From Flavobacteriales bacterium (GTDB lineage: Bacteria > Bacteroidota > Bacteroidia > Flavobacteriales > Flavobacteriaceae): a stretch of 13,474 bases of DNA. How positions within the stretch are numbered: the stretch's first letter is position 1; the number at the start of each line of letters is the position of its first letter. The notes beneath the pieces are model-generated. The model did not search any database and was not told the origin of the DNA. It saw only the letters and a program-made list of their open reading frames with translations. The translations under genes and the position numbers were made by a program. This document shows, one piece after another, positions 3,351 to 12,954 of the stretch. The stretch is taken from positions 1-13,474 of the forward strand of contig QIIH01000221.1 in NCBI GenBank assembly GCA_003229235.1, given 5' to 3'.

Positions 3351-4244
3351 TTGAAACCTTCAACACATTCTGAATCAACCCCTTCCTTACTAAAGGACTT
3401 TGCCGAGATTACCAAAGTCAGATTGTCTGTGAGTGTCGTTTTCTCTTCGATTGCGGGGTATTTATTAGGTGCACCAAGTATTGATTTAGGCATATTAGTA
3501 ATGCTCGCCTTTGGCGGATATTTTATGGTGGGTGCTTCGAATGCCTTTAATCAAATTATTGAACGAGATTTGGACGCTCTCATGGATCGCACCAAAAACA
3601 GACCTGTCGCCTCTGGTCGCATGAGCGTACAAACGGCTTTCATTATTGCAGCAGTTTTTACCATTGCAGGGCTTGCTTTGCTGTATATGATTAATCAAAA
3701 AACAGCACTCTTTGGTGCTATTTCGATATTCATGTATGTTAGTTTGTATACCCCCTTAAAAACAAAAACACCGCTGTCTGTCTTTGTCGGAGCCTTTCCA
3801 GGAGCTATCCCTTTTATGTTAGGTTGGGTGGCGGCAACCAATAACTTTGGTATTGAAGCTGGCACGCTATTTATAATTCAATTTTTTTGGCAGTTTCCAC
3901 ACTTTTGGGCCATTGGTTGGTTTTTATTTGAAGATTATAAAAAGGGAGGATTCTTTATGCTCCCTAATGGCAAGCGAGACAAAGGGACGGCATTGCAAGT
4001 TGTCCTGTATTCACTTTGGACTGTACTATGCTCGTTAATTCCGGCTTTTAGGCTTACTGGAGAATTTTACATAACGCATGTTTCTGCCGTATTGGTGGGA
4101 TTATTGGGCGTTTGGTTTATTTATGGAGCGATTACTTTGTATAAAAAACAAGATGCAAAAACTGCGCGAAAACTAATGCTCATCAGCGTGAGCTATATTA
4201 CCCTTATACAGATTATTTACGTGGCCGATAAATTTATACGATAA
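3351..4244 (+). CDS. ctaB: Protoheme IX farnesyltransferase (heme O synthase)
   Basis: This is an integral inner-membrane UbiA-family prenyltransferase of 297 residues. It adds a farnesyl group to heme b to make heme O, the precursor of heme A for cytochrome oxidase. The first aspartate-rich motif is at residues 64-85 (Asn64/Asn67, Arg72-Asp73-x-Asp75, Met78, Asp79-Arg80-Thr81, Arg84-Pro85). The second conserved block includes YTPLKTKTPLSVFVGAFPGA (about 133-152), followed by WQFPHFWAIGW (180-190) and FEDYKKGGFFMLP. About eight or nine membrane spans are apparent. The start is a TTG: no ATG or GTG lies in a plausible position, and TTG at 3351 gives the usual short polar tail before FAEITKVRLSVSVVFSSIAG. 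The stop codon shares its last base with the ATG of the next gene (4244), so translation is probably coupled. Heme A synthase is not in the window. Confidence 0.95.
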   Translation: MKPSTHSESTPSLLKDFAEITKVRLSVSVVFSSIAGYLLGAPSIDLGILVMLAFGGYFMVGASNAFNQIIERDLDALMDRTKNRPVASGRMSVQTAFIIAAVFTIAGLALLYMINQKTALFGAISIFMYVSLYTPLKTKTPLSVFVGAFPGAIPFMLGWVAATNNFGIEAGTLFIIQFFWQFPHFWAIGWFLFEDYKKGGFFMLPNGKRDKGTALQVVLYSLWTVLCSLIPAFRLTGEFYITHVSAVLVGLLGVWFIYGAITLYKKQDAKTARKLMLISVSYITLIQIIYVADKFIR

Positions 4245-4828
4245 TGACAGAACAACAATTAGAAGAGCACAAACAACATTTAAGAGCCAAGCGCATGATG
4301 CTTTGGTTCGGAATTGGAAGTTTGGTAATGGGTTTTGCGGCTTTTACAAGTGCCTATATAGTGAGTCACGAACGTGACGATTGGCTTAGCGATTACGAAT
4401 TACCAAGTGCTTTTTATTATAGCACAATTATTATCGTACTAAGTAGTATTAGCATGTTTTTAGCCTATCGAGCGGTTAAAAAAGAACAAAATTCTCAGGG
4501 AATGCTCCTGCTCTTGCTCACCTTTGCTCTTGGAATTGTCTTTGGAGTTTTGCAATTTATTGGCTTCGATCAAATAATTGAGGACTTTGGTTACAACTTT
4601 ACCGGCCCTACAAGTAGCATTTCTTATACCTATGTTTATTTGATAGCAGTGGTACACCTAGCACACGTTGCAGCAGGGTTAATTGCCCTCATAGTAGTAA
4701 TTTATAATCATTATAAACAAAAGTACGCTCAGGGTCAAACCCTTGGAATAGAACTGGCTGCCACTTTCTGGCATTTTGTAGACCTATTATGGTTGTATTT
4801 GTTTTTCTTTTTATATTTCTTTAGATAA
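4244..4828 (+). CDS. Cytochrome c oxidase subunit III, short divergent paralogue
   Basis: The product has 194 residues and five membrane spans (about 18-40, 56-76, 87-105, 130-154, 175-193). It belongs to the heme-copper oxidase subunit III family, shown by the C-terminal FWHFVDLLWLYLFFFLYFF (residues 175-193) and HLAHVAAGL before it. It aligns without gaps with the next subunit III gene over the first span (LWFGIGSLVMGFAAFTSAY against MWFFIVSDALTFSGFLAAY). In that span it has Leu27 where the other protein has Asp38 and canonical subunit III has a conserved glutamate. It also lacks the EW that follows the third span. It overlaps the ctaB stop by one base. Subunit III supports proton uptake and stability around catalytic subunit I, which is not encoded here. 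It may serve as a structural second subunit III. Confidence 0.88.
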   Translation: MTEQQLEEHKQHLRAKRMMLWFGIGSLVMGFAAFTSAYIVSHERDDWLSDYELPSAFYYSTIIIVLSSISMFLAYRAVKKEQNSQGMLLLLLTFALGIVFGVLQFIGFDQIIEDFGYNFTGPTSSISYTYVYLIAVVHLAHVAAGLIALIVVIYNHYKQKYAQGQTLGIELAATFWHFVDLLWLYLFFFLYFFR

Positions 4829-4838
4829 GAAATTTGCT

Positions 4839-4846
4839 TATTTTTG
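4839..4846 (+). promoter_or_regulatory. Candidate -7 promoter box before the second subunit III gene
   Basis: TATTTTTG (4839-4846) matches TAnnTTTG and lies 27 bases before the ATG at 4874. No clear TTG is present in the -33 position, and the region overlaps the end of the preceding gene, so this may be a weak internal promoter or a chance match in T-rich sequence. The same ten bases, TATTTTTGTA, recur at 6300-6309. Confidence 0.35.
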
Positions 4847-4873
4847 TACCCATCATAACATCAACTGCATTTT

Positions 4874-5851
4874 ATGGATACGACTGTTGAACCAACAGCT
4901 AAAGAAGAAAAAATCTGGGATGGCGGAAACCGTCCGTTAAGAGCCAGTTACGGCAAATTGATGATGTGGTTTTTCATCGTTTCTGATGCCTTAACCTTTT
5001 CTGGATTCCTTGCCGCTTACGGCTTTTCTCGATTTAAATTTATTGACTCTTGGCCTATCGCCGATGAAGTATTTACACATATTCCATTTATACACGGAAA
5101 CTTCCCGATGTATTATGTGGCGTTTATGACGTTTGTTTTAATTTTCTCGTCTGTAACGATGGTACTTGCTGTAGATGCGGGTCATCAAATGAAAAAGAAC
5201 AAAGTGATTTTTTATATGTTCCTTACCATCATTGGAGGTCTTATTTTTGTAGGCTCACAGGCTTGGGAATGGAAGACTTTTATTAAAGGCGACTACGGTG
5301 CAATAGAAACCAAAGGAGGGCGGATACTACAATTTTTAGATAACGAGGGCAACCGCGTGGCACTTAGAGATATTGCAACAAGTTCTTCTCAAAGAGATAC
5401 ACATACGAGAGATAACGGGATATGGTACGAAGGCGAAGAAGCTACTTTATCTACCTATACAGTCGATGATATTAAAGCAGGTTTTGCAGCCAATCCAGAT
5501 TTGCTTATAAGAACACAATACTTAACAGAAAAAGGAGAGATGACGGTGTTGTCTCGGGAAGAGTCTCTAAATAAGTTAAATAACGATGCAGTTGCTATTG
5601 TAGAAGGAGCCAACTTAAAACATAACGAATACGGTTCGCCGTTATTTGCAGATTTCTTTTTCTTTATTACAGGGTTTCACGGATTTCACGTATTTTCTGG
5701 AGTACTCATAAACATTATTGTATTCTTTAATGTAATTATTGGTACTTACGAGCGGCGCGGTCATTACGAAATGGTCGAAAAGGTTGCGCTCTATTGGCAC
5801 TTTGTAGATTTAGTTTGGGTATTTGTATTTACCTTCTTTTATCTGGTTTAA
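4874..5851 (+). CDS. Cytochrome c oxidase subunit III with a large extramembrane insertion
   Basis: The product has 325 residues. Family marks are FIVSDALTFSGFLAAYGF in the first span (Asp38 in place of the usual Glu), SQAWEWKTF (about 128-136), FFFFITGFHGFHVFSG (about 261-276) and the C-terminal YWHFVDLVWVFVFTFFYLV (307-325). Subunit III surrounds catalytic subunit I of aa3/caa3-type oxidases in the inner membrane. Between EW and GFHG lies about 120 residues of charged, soluble-looking sequence (about 138-258), where the family usually has a short loop. I believe flavobacterial orthologues carry this insertion, but that is from memory. The gene sits 45 bases after the short paralogue and 21 bases before subunit IV. 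Subunits I and II must be encoded elsewhere. Confidence 0.93.
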   Translation: MDTTVEPTAKEEKIWDGGNRPLRASYGKLMMWFFIVSDALTFSGFLAAYGFSRFKFIDSWPIADEVFTHIPFIHGNFPMYYVAFMTFVLIFSSVTMVLAVDAGHQMKKNKVIFYMFLTIIGGLIFVGSQAWEWKTFIKGDYGAIETKGGRILQFLDNEGNRVALRDIATSSSQRDTHTRDNGIWYEGEEATLSTYTVDDIKAGFAANPDLLIRTQYLTEKGEMTVLSREESLNKLNNDAVAIVEGANLKHNEYGSPLFADFFFFITGFHGFHVFSGVLINIIVFFNVIIGTYERRGHYEMVEKVALYWHFVDLVWVFVFTFFYLV

Positions 5852-5872
5852 AAAACGCGATTATAGCTAGTT

Positions 5873-6256
5873 ATGGCACACGAACATAAGTTAGAAATTT
5901 TTAGAGGCACATTAAAGTTCAAGTCTAATATTACCAAGATTTGGGGTGTATTTGTGATATTGTCTATAGTGACAATTGTAGAAGTAATTTTGGGTATTGC
6001 CAAGCCCGAAGTTTTAACCGAGAACAGATTCTTGGCTATGAAACTACTCAATTGGATATTTATAGTGCTAACAATCTTTAAAGCCTATTATATTACTTGG
6101 GACTTTATGCACATGCGTGACGAGACTAAAGGTATGCGACGCTCTGTTGTCTGGACAGCCGTGTTCCTAATTTGTTTTTTGGTATTAATTGTACTGCTCG
6201 AAGGAGATTATATTTACGAGGTATACAAAAGCAATCATGTTAAATTCAATTTTTAA
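5873..6256 (+). CDS. Cytochrome c oxidase subunit IV-like membrane protein
   Basis: This protein of 127 residues has three membrane spans (about 23-43, 55-76, 92-109), a short polar N-terminus with His3 and His5, and the block WDFMHMRDETKGMRR between spans 2 and 3. Size, topology and this WxFMHxRDE-type loop fit the prokaryotic oxidase subunit IV (caa3/CyoD-like) family. These small subunits stabilise the oxidase. It lies 21 bases after subunit III and is the last gene before a strong terminator, so it closes the ctaB-oxidase transcription unit. Confidence 0.9.
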   Translation: MAHEHKLEIFRGTLKFKSNITKIWGVFVILSIVTIVEVILGIAKPEVLTENRFLAMKLLNWIFIVLTIFKAYYITWDFMHMRDETKGMRRSVVWTAVFLICFLVLIVLLEGDYIYEVYKSNHVKFNF

Positions 6257-6363: not shown

Positions 6364-7017
6364 ATGAAAAAGAAATTAGTCTTAGGGTTTTTATTTATCC
6401 TTCCGTTGGTTGCCTATATGTTTTTTGCCGCGGCAGACCACAACTTTAGATTGTTACCTACGCTATCCGAACCGCTTACAGAGCTCAACTCAGAAGTAAA
6501 AGATACAAAGGGCGAAGCCGTCGTAATGGCTAATAAAATTACGGTACTTGGGTTTTTAGGGAAGGATGTTAATTCGCGATACGGGCATGTTTTTAATCTA
6601 GCTCATAAAATTTATAAACCTTATTCTAAATTTCATGATTTACAATTTGTAATGCTCTTACCAGAGGGTACAGAGGCCGAGCTTGCTAAGCTGTTAAGTG
6701 AATTAGAAAAGATAGAAATCACAGATAATTGGCGGTTTGTATTTGCAAATGAGGAGCAAATTGTATCTACCTATACCGAGCTAGGTGTGCCATATAGTTT
6801 GAAAGAAGATTTAGGTTCAGATTATATGTTCATCATCGATAAAGACAAAAAGCTACGAGGGAGAACCGACGACGAAGATGTGCAAATTCTCTATGGATAC
6901 GATGCAAGTAATGTAGCTTTACTAGACGATAAGATGGACGATGACATACAAGTTATGTTAGCCGAATATCGCAGAGCCCTTAAAAAGAACGACAAGTATA
7001 AAAGAAAAAGTCTGTAA
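6364..7017 (+). CDS. Sco/thioredoxin-fold-like protein lacking metal ligands (membrane-anchored, periplasmic)
   Basis: The product has 217 residues with an N-terminal anchor or signal (about 6-22). The remainder is predicted periplasmic and reads like a degenerate Sco or peroxiredoxin-like fold: strand KITVLGFLGKDVN (58-70) where a Sco would carry CxxxC, helix SRYGHVFNLAHKIY, strand LQFVMLLP, and a late strand DYMFIIDKDKKLRGR (153-167) that parallels ALIDKEGNIRSR of the next gene. The protein has no cysteine at all. The position of the Sco histidine is taken by Gly151, so it should not bind copper in the Sco manner. The stop codon overlaps the start of the Sco gene by one base. The role is inferred from context: a partner or scaffold in oxidase copper-site assembly. 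I do not recognise a characterised family name, and the fold assignment is by eye. Confidence 0.75.
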   Translation: MKKKLVLGFLFILPLVAYMFFAAADHNFRLLPTLSEPLTELNSEVKDTKGEAVVMANKITVLGFLGKDVNSRYGHVFNLAHKIYKPYSKFHDLQFVMLLPEGTEAELAKLLSELEKIEITDNWRFVFANEEQIVSTYTELGVPYSLKEDLGSDYMFIIDKDKKLRGRTDDEDVQILYGYDASNVALLDDKMDDDIQVMLAEYRRALKKNDKYKRKSL

Positions 7018-7650
7018 TGAAAAAACAGAATTACTCATACATAGGTATCTCATTAATAATCTTAGTCTTCGGAATTTGGGCTGTTGACAAAATTGACGAT
7101 TATTTATCTGATCCAGATCTAGCAATCATAGGCCAAGTACCGGCATTTTCTTTTACTAATCAAAAAGGAGAAACCATTACCAATGCATCTTACAAGGGCA
7201 AAGTGTACATTACTGAGTTCTTTTTTACTACTTGCCCTTCCATTTGCCATTTGCCCTATTATGAATCGCAATATGGTACTTATTCAAGACGAATTTTACG
7301 GGAATCCTAATTTAGGGATGGCTTCGTTTAGTATAAACCCAGAATACGATACACCAGAAGTATTGCAAGTTTATGCAGAGAGCTATGGGATTACAAATCC
7401 TAATTGGCATTTGCTCACTGGAGATAAACTCGAAATATTTACATTGGCCAACAACGGCTTTAACCTATATGTTGCACAGAACGAAGAAGTAGAAGGTGGG
7501 TTTGAGCATTCTGGTTTTTTCGCGCTTATCGATAAGGAAGGTAATATTAGATCGCGCATTGATGAGCACGGCAATCCCATTGTATACTATAATGGCTTAG
7601 AACAGGAGCAGATTCAGATTTTAAAAGAGGATATCAAAAAGCTACTGTAA
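7017..7650 (+). pseudogene. sco: SCO1/SenC copper chaperone gene, frameshifted by a 7-base tandem duplication
   Basis: Sco proteins are membrane-anchored periplasmic thioredoxin-fold proteins that deliver copper to, or reduce, the CuA site of oxidase subunit II. Here the frame starting at 7017 encodes an N-terminal span (about 8-24), the core start GQVPAFSFTNQKGE and FFFTTCPSIC (Cys73, Cys77). It then leaves frame and stops at 7308-7310 after 97 residues. The rest continues in the +1 frame from 7255 as PIMNRNMVLIQDEF and contains FEHSGFFALIDKEGNIRSR with the conserved histidine (codon 7507-7509), ending at 7650. The cause is visible: CCATTTG is doubled at 7240-7253. With one copy the protein would be 208 residues with intact CPSICP, normal for Sco. 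The first stop is followed eight bases later by an in-frame ATG (7318), so a cysteine-less fragment might be re-initiated. The stop at 7650 overlaps the next start. Confidence 0.9.
7240..7253 (+). repeat. 7-base perfect tandem duplication (CCATTTG x2) inside the Sco copper motif
   Basis: Two adjacent copies of CCATTTG (7240-7246 and 7247-7253) are followed by CC, giving two and two-sevenths units. The first copy encodes the end of CPSIC. The second copy shifts the frame by seven bases and produces a premature stop at 7308. Seven is not a multiple of three, so gain or loss of a copy switches the gene between broken and intact. Confidence 0.95.
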
Positions 7651-8177
7651 TGGCCATTCAAAACACAACCAAATACAATCGCCTTATCTGGATACTTTCT
7701 GTAGCAATTCCGCTTGCGGTAGCTGTTTTATTTAAAGTGAGAATTCCTGGCGTCGAACGCCTCGGGTTTTTACCACCAATTTATGCCACCATAAATGGAA
7801 TTACAGCAATTGTATTGATACTCGCAGTAATCCAAATTCGAAGAGGCAATCGTAAGCAACATGAACGCTTAATGAAGTCTGCTATTGCTTTATCGGCTCT
7901 TTTTTTGATACTATATGTAATTTATCATATGACCTCAGATTCTGTCACATTTGGCAAAGAAGGAACAATTAAAACAATTTATCTTTTTATACTTATATCG
8001 CATATCGTCTTGTCTATTGGCGTTATTCCACTAGTTTTAATCACGTTTGTTCGGGCTCTTAGTGAGCGTTTTGATAAACATAAAAAACTGGCTCGCATTA
8101 CCTTTCCCATTTGGTTGTATGTCGCTATTTCTGGGGTAGTTGTTTATTTAATGATTTCGCCATATTATCCGCAATAG
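7650..8177 (+). CDS. DUF420 family membrane protein (CtaM/YozB-like oxidase assembly factor)
   Basis: This polytopic protein of 175 residues has five membrane spans (about 12-30, 43-63, 75-94, 110-134, 152-171). Histidines lie at or near span ends: His71 in the NRKQHERLMKSA loop, His93 in YVIYHMTSD, His118 in LISHIVLS, and His144 in FDKHKKLARITFPIWLYVAISG. This histidine pattern and size fit DUF420. Members such as CtaM of Staphylococcus aureus are needed for a functional aa3-type oxidase, and the histidines are candidates for heme or metal contact. Its ATG overlaps the Sco stop codon by one base, so translation is normally coupled to Sco. The frameshift upstream could therefore lower its expression. 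The family call is by recall of motifs and context; the biochemical step is not known. Confidence 0.85.
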   Translation: MAIQNTTKYNRLIWILSVAIPLAVAVLFKVRIPGVERLGFLPPIYATINGITAIVLILAVIQIRRGNRKQHERLMKSAIALSALFLILYVIYHMTSDSVTFGKEGTIKTIYLFILISHIVLSIGVIPLVLITFVRALSERFDKHKKLARITFPIWLYVAISGVVVYLMISPYYPQ

Positions 8178-8178
8178 C

Positions 8179-8409
8179 ATGAAGCAGAAAGCAATTCTAA
8201 TATTAATTATGCTCCTTTTGATGAGTGTCTCGGCAGATGCTCAATGTGCTATGTGCAGAGCAGTTCTGGAAAGTGAAGAAACACAAAGTACAGCTCGTGG
8301 TGTAAACAATGGAATCAAGTATCTTATGGTAATTCCTTATCTAGTTGTAGGAACACTGGGCTTTGTGATTTACAGAAGTCGTAAACGAGACCAAATAGCC
8401 AAAAATTAA
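8179..8409 (+). CDS. Small exported CxxC (CAMC) membrane protein, function unknown
   Basis: The protein has 76 residues. Residues 1-21 are a hydrophobic signal sequence ending SADA, a plausible signal peptidase site just before Gln22. The predicted mature N-terminus then carries Cys23-Ala-Met-Cys26 at once, followed by a short polar region (28-47), one membrane span (about 48-66) and a basic tail (RSRKRDQ). The cysteines would face the periplasm and the tail the cytoplasm. The sequence before Cys23 (DAQ) does not make a good lipobox. It starts one base after the DUF420 stop, so it belongs to the assembly operon. A thiol or copper role is inferred from CAMC and from its neighbours only. I do not recognise a named family, though I believe similar small proteins occur beside DUF420 genes in other Bacteroidota. 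Confidence 0.8.
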   Translation: MKQKAILILIMLLLMSVSADAQCAMCRAVLESEETQSTARGVNNGIKYLMVIPYLVVGTLGFVIYRSRKRDQIAKN

Positions 8410-9258: not shown

Positions 9259-10495
9259 TTTAGAAGGCTGGCAAGAAATATTCGAGACCATTGGTAAAAA
9301 TAGGCTTCGCACCTTTTTAACCGGGCTTTCTGTTGCTTCTGGAATTTTTATTCTCGTTATTCTTTTAGGTTTTAATAGCGGAATCGAAAAGGGTGTTAAG
9401 TCGCAGTTCGAACAAGACGCCACCAACAGAATTGCAATCCGGACAGGGGTAACCACAAAGGGGTACAAAGGATTAAATCCTGGTAGGTTTATTCAAATGC
9501 GTAACAGCGATTTTAACGAGACCAGCTTAAAATACCAAGAAGATATAGAATACAAAACCTCAATTTACTCTATTTGGGGAGGTCAAATTACTTACGGAGC
9601 TCAATCCGGAAATTATAGAGTCGAAGGGTCGCATCCTGATCAGCAGTTTATAGAAAACCAAGACCTAGTGTCGGGTCGATTTATTAATATTAGTGACGTA
9701 GACGAAAAAAATAAAATTGCCGTTATCGGTATGCAAATCCAGAAAGACTTGTTTAAAGGAGAGCAGGCAACTGGCAAGCGGATAAAAGTCTTTGGGATTA
9801 ACTTTTTAGTGGTAGGAGTGTTTACCGATCCTGGTGGAACTCGTGAAGAGAACCGAGTGTTTATTCCAATTACTACAGCACAGCAAGTTTTTAATGCTGG
9901 CGATCGTATACGCTCTATTGCATATACCGTAAAAATGTCGGATAATTTTGACGAAGCAGTGGCTTTGTCTGCGGCCATGTCTGAGAATTTAGAACAAGAT
10001 TTAAAAACAAAGTACAGCGTGGCTCCCGACGATCGAGGCGCTGTTAGAGTAAATAACACTTTAGAAGAAGCGAAAAAGATATACGGCCTTATCGATACCA
10101 TCCGTATGGTGTTCTGGTTTATTGGGATTGGGACCATAATAGCGGGCGTTGTAGGGGTAAGTAATATTATGCTCATTGTAGTAAAGGAGCGCACCAAAGA
10201 GATTGGAATCAGAAAGGCCCTTGGTGCTTTGCCAAGCTCGATAGTTGCAATGATTTTGCAAGAAGCTATTTTTGTTACTACCATTGCAGGTTTTATCGGA
10301 CTTTTTGCAGGTGTAGGCTTGCTGGAGATTATAAGCCCAATGGTCGATAGTGATTTTATTAAATTCCCGCAAGTAGACTTTAACACCTCGATAACTACGG
10401 TAATTGTACTTATAGTGGCAGGCGCATTAGCAGGGTATATCCCAGCCAGACGTGCTGCCAATATTAAGCCAATTGTAGCCCTTAGAGACGAATAA
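9251..10495 (+). CDS. MacB-type ABC transporter permease 1 (FtsX-like)
   Basis: This permease of 414 residues has MacB topology. An amphipathic start (WQEIFETIGKNRLRTFLTG) is followed by span 1 (about 22-42), a large periplasmic domain (about 45-280), and three C-terminal spans (about 286-310, 334-360, 381-398). The family block SNIMLIVVKERTKEIG begins at residue 304 and is followed by RKALGA, the coupling region to the ATPase. The periplasmic domain includes IAVIG and GINFLVVGVF, also found in the second permease. It ends YIPARRAANIKPIVALRDE, typical of the family. The gene starts inside the end of the ATPase gene (8-base overlap), which suggests coupled synthesis. The likely role is half of a heterodimeric MacB-like pump working with the adaptor and TolC-like protein downstream. 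The substrate is unknown. Confidence 0.93.
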   Translation: MFNLEGWQEIFETIGKNRLRTFLTGLSVASGIFILVILLGFNSGIEKGVKSQFEQDATNRIAIRTGVTTKGYKGLNPGRFIQMRNSDFNETSLKYQEDIEYKTSIYSIWGGQITYGAQSGNYRVEGSHPDQQFIENQDLVSGRFINISDVDEKNKIAVIGMQIQKDLFKGEQATGKRIKVFGINFLVVGVFTDPGGTREENRVFIPITTAQQVFNAGDRIRSIAYTVKMSDNFDEAVALSAAMSENLEQDLKTKYSVAPDDRGAVRVNNTLEEAKKIYGLIDTIRMVFWFIGIGTIIAGVVGVSNIMLIVVKERTKEIGIRKALGALPSSIVAMILQEAIFVTTIAGFIGLFAGVGLLEIISPMVDSDFIKFPQVDFNTSITTVIVLIVAGALAGYIPARRAANIKPIVALRDE

Positions 10496-11793: not shown

Positions 11794-12954
11794 ATGAAAA
11801 GAAGAGGTACCATCATCATATTAGCAATAATTGTTGTCAGCTTTACATTAGGGATACGATATATCTATTTAAAAGATAAAGCCGACCCTATTGTGTATAA
11901 AACTCAACAGGCCACAACAGAGACAATTGTAAAAAAGACAGTTGCCACAGGGAGTATTGTCCCTAAAGAAGAAGTGCTTATTAAGCCAAACATTTCTGGA
12001 ATTATCGCCGAAATATTTGTCGAAGCAGGCGATGTTATTCAATCGGGAGATTTAATTGCTATGGTAAAAGTAGTTCCTAATATATCGTCACTAAATAACG
12101 CACAAAATAACATTCGAGGAGCTCAAACACAGGTAGAGACCGCCAAATTGGCCTTCGATAATGCGCAGACCATATATAATAGACAAAAAGATTTGTTCGA
12201 TAAGGGGGTAATTTCTGCCAACGAATTTGACACGGCACAAAATGCCTTTAATCAAGCTCAACAACGGTACAAACAAGAACAAGTAAGTTTAAGAGCGGCA
12301 CGTCAAAACTTCGATATCATTAAAACAGGTACTACATCTGGTATGGGCGCTTCTGCCAATACAGAGATTCGCGCGACGGTGAGTGGAATGGTTTTAGACG
12401 TCCCTGTAAAAACCGGAAATCAAGTAATCGAAGCGAATAACTTTAACGATGGTACTACCATTGCAATTATTGCCGATGTCGAGAAAATGATCTTCGAAGG
12501 GAAAGTAGACGAGAGTGAAGTGGGCAAGATAACGGAGAATCTACCCTTAGAAATTACTGTTGGTGCAATTCAAGATGTCACTTTCGATGCAATACTAGAT
12601 TATATTGCTCCAAAAGGAGTAGCAGAGAACGGCGCCATACAATTCGAAATTAGAGGGACCCTAAATAAAATTGACACTACTTTTATTCGTGCTGGGCTGA
12701 GTGCCAACGCTTCTATTATTTTGGCAAGAGCAGACAGTATTCTTTCTATTAAAGAAGCGCTAGTACAATACGACCCTAAAACCTTAGCTCCTTTTGTAGA
12801 AGTAGAGGTAGGAGAACAAAAATTTGAACGTCGTGATGTACAATTAGGCATAAGCGATGGGATTCAAGTAGAGGTTAAATCAGGTATTTCAAAAACAGAT
12901 AAAATCAAGGTGTGGAATCAATTAAAGCCGGGCGCAAAATTTGGCGGTAGGTAA
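11794..12954 (+). CDS. Periplasmic adaptor (membrane fusion) protein, MacA/HlyD family
   Basis: The product has 386 residues. A basic N-terminus and one membrane anchor (about 6-24) lead into a first half of a lipoyl-like domain (about 50-95, KPNISGIIAEIFVEAGDVI), and an alpha-hairpin rich in Asn/Gln/Ala (about 98-175). The second lipoyl half follows (190-215, RATVSGMVLDVPVKTGNQV), then a beta-barrel domain (about 230-310, FEGKVDESEVGKI) and a membrane-proximal domain with a Gly-rich C-terminus (AKFGGR). This is the order found in RND/MacA-type adaptors, which link an inner-membrane pump to a TolC-like outer-membrane channel across the periplasm. It lies 37 bases after permease 2 and 63 bases before the TolC-like gene. 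Confidence 0.93.
   Translation: MKRRGTIIILAIIVVSFTLGIRYIYLKDKADPIVYKTQQATTETIVKKTVATGSIVPKEEVLIKPNISGIIAEIFVEAGDVIQSGDLIAMVKVVPNISSLNNAQNNIRGAQTQVETAKLAFDNAQTIYNRQKDLFDKGVISANEFDTAQNAFNQAQQRYKQEQVSLRAARQNFDIIKTGTTSGMGASANTEIRATVSGMVLDVPVKTGNQVIEANNFNDGTTIAIIADVEKMIFEGKVDESEVGKITENLPLEITVGAIQDVTFDAILDYIAPKGVAENGAIQFEIRGTLNKIDTTFIRAGLSANASIILARADSILSIKEALVQYDPKTLAPFVEVEVGEQKFERRDVQLGISDGIQVEVKSGISKTDKIKVWNQLKPGAKFGGR

Follow-up and report, generated by a model that had tools for sequence, protein, structure and literature searches.

A seven-base tandem duplication interrupting a Flavobacteriales sco gene as a probable scar of contig joining

A perfect tandem duplication of seven bases interrupts the sco gene of a Flavobacteriales draft genome just after its CxxxC motif, and it is very probably an assembly scar, left where two contigs were joined and the short overlap between their ends was not collapsed. 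The stretch of DNA analyzed here (the window) is contig C60, 13,474 bases long, of a draft of 511 contigs, and the join is deduced from the order of these contigs together with the statistics of scars elsewhere in the assembly. The repeat stands at an apparent fragment junction and is therefore most likely a draft-genome error rather than a genetic switch, which disposes of a false lead on how respiration is controlled. In the living organism, the sco of the cytochrome oxidase cluster is most likely ordinary and intact. A reading of the sequence alone had described the event as recent, reversible, or a sequence error; the last of these stands, specifically as a contig-join scar, while the switch that it also proposed does not.

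Sco proteins carry a CXXXCXnH motif and serve CuA assembly, as described in an excerpt of PMC9145763. All ligands of this motif are encoded in the window, with the cysteine pair in one reading frame of the forward strand and the histidine in another. The first frame (7017-7310) includes FFFTTCPSICHLPYYES, opens with a hydrophobic segment that by eye looks like a membrane anchor, and matches the Pfam family PF02630 over profile positions 3-39 with 38.4 bits; real Sco coding within it stops at about 7247. The second frame (7183-7650, forward strand) carries Sco sequence from about 7246, with CPIMNRNM and the remainder of the protein, stays open until 7650 and matches profile positions 35-133 with 51.8 bits. 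Each match exceeds the curated cut-off of 22.8 bits, and combined they span positions 3-133 of the 134 in the profile, so that the domain is recovered from two separate frames and not from a single continuous one. The gene resembles the Sco/SenC/PrrC family in its CxxxC, its distal histidine and its position adjoining oxidase and DUF420 genes, but departs from it in being interrupted after the second cysteine, whereas the frame is unbroken in every listed relative.

The unit CCATTTG is present twice in tandem at 7240-7253, and the period-seven match extends to 7255, giving a perfect tract (two units plus CC) at 7240-7255 of the forward strand. The doubled form is unique within the window and was absent from all 200 dinucleotide-preserving shuffles. 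Alignment with the orthologue of a genus relative (G001) puts the frame change at 7246-7247, where the match runs to 7247 in frame 3 and resumes from 7246 in frame 1, a net gain of seven bases. The two halves are 68% and 80% identical to this orthologue, the latter over 7246-7647, and align with it apart from this single break, which we attribute to the assembly. The sequence-only reading had reported both the doubling, with loss of frame just after CxxxC, and a conserved histidine at 7507-7509; both are confirmed, the histidine codon being CAT in the second frame.

The genes around sco all lie on the forward strand in the order UbiA-family protein, two COX3-family subunits, COX4_pro, a gene of 217 residues, sco and a DUF420 gene. 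The first four occupy 3351-6256 (PF01040, PF00510 twice, PF03626), and context suggests that the UbiA-family protein is heme O synthase. The 217-residue gene (6364-7017), whose stop overlaps the sco start, is 61% identical in G001 and gave no match in a Pfam search; its product is possibly a further oxidase assembly factor. The DUF420 gene (7650-8177; PF04238, 158.7 bits) has a start that overlaps the stop of sco, and an excerpt of PMC9145763 assigns DUF420 to CtaM, a factor that serves oxidase assembly in Bacillota. Beyond it, at 8179-8409, lies a 76-residue protein without a Pfam match; its signal-like start and its CAMC motif were noted by eye.

The position of the frame break can be compared with a contig end predicted independently of it. 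We assumed that the numbering of the contigs keeps the original file order, an assumption that their falling lengths fit: of the 81 contigs whose lengths were obtained, 62 conform to a numbering by falling length and the other 19 exceed the length that their rank allows. We infer that these over-long contigs are joins made after length sorting. C60 ranks between C59 (7,287 bases) and C63 (7,211 bases), which form its bracket because C61 and C62 are too long themselves. At 13,474 bases C60 therefore appears to be a piece of 7,211-7,287 bases that was extended after sorting, with a predicted end at 7211-7287 of the window. The tract at 7240-7255 falls within that interval, and the direct and mirror intervals together make up 1.1% of the window. 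The idea of a join was prompted by C60 itself, and it is the other contigs that test it independently.

Tandem copies with a period of at least seven occur at a background of 0.119 per kb (56 in 471,000 bases of 48 rank-consistent contigs). A perfect repeat of 14 bases is thus not rare genome-wide, and what sets the CCATTTG doubling apart is where it lies and the loss of frame that goes with it. Among the 12 over-long contigs with sequence, which include C60 and exclude C3 (its bracket is 4.4 kb wide), the predicted intervals hold five such duplications where 0.33 would be expected, with P values, all of which assume independent positions and are to be read as orders of magnitude, of 2.5e-5 with C60 and 3.9e-4 without it. 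Widening the intervals by 100 bases gave six duplications against 0.90 expected (P 3.5e-4).

The five belong to C60, C52, C16, C19 and C23. C23 (L136) has perfect 7-bp tandem duplications at 9707-9723 and 10160-10174, one of them in the predicted interval, and both break a single gene by comparison with its G001 orthologue, L290, which has an open frame of 333 residues; C23 therefore probably holds two joins. In C52 the frame runs through the duplication, which was accordingly dropped as a scar although it remains in the count of five; because the gene is unbroken by it, it is probably a chance occurrence. The duplication in C16 lies in no frame of 60 residues or more, and for the one in C19 the best relatives are only 35% and 28% identical. 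C61 (L173) carries a perfect 16-bp tandem duplication at 636-667, just outside its predicted interval. At the predictions in C33, C46 and C55 there is neither a duplication of period seven or more nor a frame break, and C21 shows only a 6-bp repeat and no frame break; the intervals of these four contigs are little or not covered by G001.

Six further over-long contigs (C62, C65, C69, C75, C78 and C81) were fetched around their predicted joins, the prediction having been made before their sequence was seen. A scar was found at or near the prediction in three of the six. In C65 (L276) a perfect tandem duplication of 25 bp occupies 7080-7129 and overlaps the predicted interval of 7092-7152; C75 (L281) has a perfect 13-bp tandem duplication at 1010-1035, with a frame break relative to G001, 22 bases outside its interval; and C81 has a frame break without duplication within an interval for which the lower bound is a guess. 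No duplication of period seven or more was seen at the predictions in C62, which has a 6-bp repeat only and is without a G001 match, in C69, which also has no frame break and is covered by G001 at the mirror interval only, or in C78, where unbroken G001 matches span both intervals. Any join in C78 would have to be clean. Three scarred contigs in six would match expectation if some joins were clean or lay in non-coding DNA. Scars like that of C60 recur at other apparent joins of the assembly, at or near the predictions in C23, C65 and C75.

A scan for frame breaks against G001 proteins, drawn from 1.6 of the 3.1 Mb of that genome, approached the same question from the coding side. It returned eight candidates, four of which (C15, C49, C52 and C60) were judged credible by inspection, and all four lie in over-long contigs, which contributed 80,299 covered bases. 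Over 155,962 coding bases compared, the rank-consistent contigs yielded no break judged credible, a result that depends on the exclusion, by judgement, of four candidates, three of them in rank-consistent contigs. These were C5 at 270 (second match only 16 residues long), C5 at 5672 (a divergent gene begins on the strand opposite the query's first 38 residues), C16 at 4813 (an initial match of only 11 residues) and C39 at 6959 (query judged to be a spurious antisense-like frame). Three of the four credible breaks fall inside predicted intervals, with P 6e-6, or 4e-4 without C60, values that rest on the chosen four; the break in C52 is outside its interval. The net change is -14 bases in C15 and -20 in C49, neither with a duplication, so bases appear to have been gained at some joins of this assembly and lost at others.

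Duplicated sequence may be retained as a join error where contigs with overlapping ends are combined. The assembly resembles such a case in that short direct duplications of 7, 13 and 25 bp, a size range that would fit uncollapsed short true overlaps, stand at or close to the ends of contigs that were apparently joined and break genes that are whole in relatives. It is unlike a pure overlap duplication in that the joins of C15 and C49 appear to have lost bases. Among the literature matches listed, nothing specific to join duplications was found. Most probably, a contig that originally measured about 7.25 kb and had CCATTTG at its end was afterwards joined, in the right order, to a second piece of about 6.2 kb starting with CCATTTG, and the shared end was retained twice at the join. 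The order of the pieces appears correct because both Sco halves match one frame in G001, where the 217-residue gene is adjacent too.

Comparison with relatives supplies the background against which biological explanations can be weighed. The C-terminal half of Sco was searched in 60 genomes, that of the window included, and was matched in 52; all relatives listed have an open Sco frame of 198-279 residues with no internal stop, the gene under study being the exception. In a search of four genomes, one of them that of the window, three genus relatives showed 70% DNA identity over the sco stretch; all three encode CPTICP(V/I)M without a change of frame. The same search found no second contig of the window's own genome covering this stretch. 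The nearest named matches are from Gilvibacter. No other assembly of the species turned up: in a listing of the best 120 proteins, the sole 100% match lies on a contig as long as the window, 13,474 bases, and the next protein is 82% identical. A phage origin was considered and dropped, the sco stretch having no match in phage records.

The sequence-only reading had also named a second Sco gene as something to look for, and one is present, intact, on contig C44 (L001, 75-743), encoding 222 residues with CVGIC and, by eye, a distal histidine. The frame that follows it is a putative FeoB-type GTPase. Each of the three genus relatives also has a second Sco-like match, and these are candidate counterparts of the C44 gene. 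The paralogue would make tolerable a real and recent slippage duplication of seven bases that had inactivated sco in the sampled population. The CC that flanks the unit on both sides, a microhomology of 2 bp, would suit slippage, and the alignment of both Sco halves with the G001 orthologue, apart from one break, is consistent with it. However, slippage would have had to strike a predicted contig end by coincidence, several other over-long contigs are scarred at or near their own predicted ends, and the three genus relatives keep their sco frame open despite a second Sco-like match. We therefore regard slippage as quite improbable. It is similarly doubtful, and strongly so, that the duplication exists in the living population and there disables the oxidase-linked Sco in a natural and possibly reversible way, leaving copper delivery to the C44 paralogue.

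Phase-variable (contingency) genes carry short tandem repeats, and the sequence-only reading had envisaged the copy number of CCATTTG as a switch that turns Sco, and hence CuA assembly, on and off. The tract does resemble those of phase-variable genes in being a coding-sequence repeat whose unit is not a multiple of three, the one point that speaks for a switch. It differs from them in having two copies (plus CC) instead of a multi-copy, slippage-prone tract, in showing no variation, in being absent from relatives, none of which among those listed has a broken gene, and in lying at a predicted contig end. No perfect tandem repeat of period 5-12 was found at the motif in any of 107 motif instances, a number obtained with one motif expression, in which some genes were fetched twice and loci with a deviating motif went uncounted. 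The points raised against slippage apply in full, and scars occur in unrelated genes on other over-long contigs of the assembly. A contingency locus accordingly has almost no probability.

The same reading had suggested a +1 ribosomal shift near 7254, where CCC is followed by T, that would yield a near-full Sco with two extra residues. Ribosomes can slip at CCC-T-type sites, and here a proline tRNA could re-pair with CCT. Yet the programmed shift finds no support, because relatives read through the junction in one continuous frame, without conservation of a shift site, and the extra residues would directly follow the second copper ligand. We consider it scarcely credible.

With the join scar as the preferred explanation, the rank order provides a check independent of reads: if an assembly was sorted by length before some of its contigs were joined, a contig too long for its rank points to the join. 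Broken genes at joins predicted in this way are to be distrusted, and other genes on C15, C23, C49, C75 and C81 are probably broken only on paper. As a separate observation, C16 (L129) contains at 11922-12209 about 290 bases dense in differing 7-bp and 8-bp tandem repeats, with units such as ACTATTG, GTCCTAA, GTTTAATC and TTTTCAC in about 4-7 copies each.
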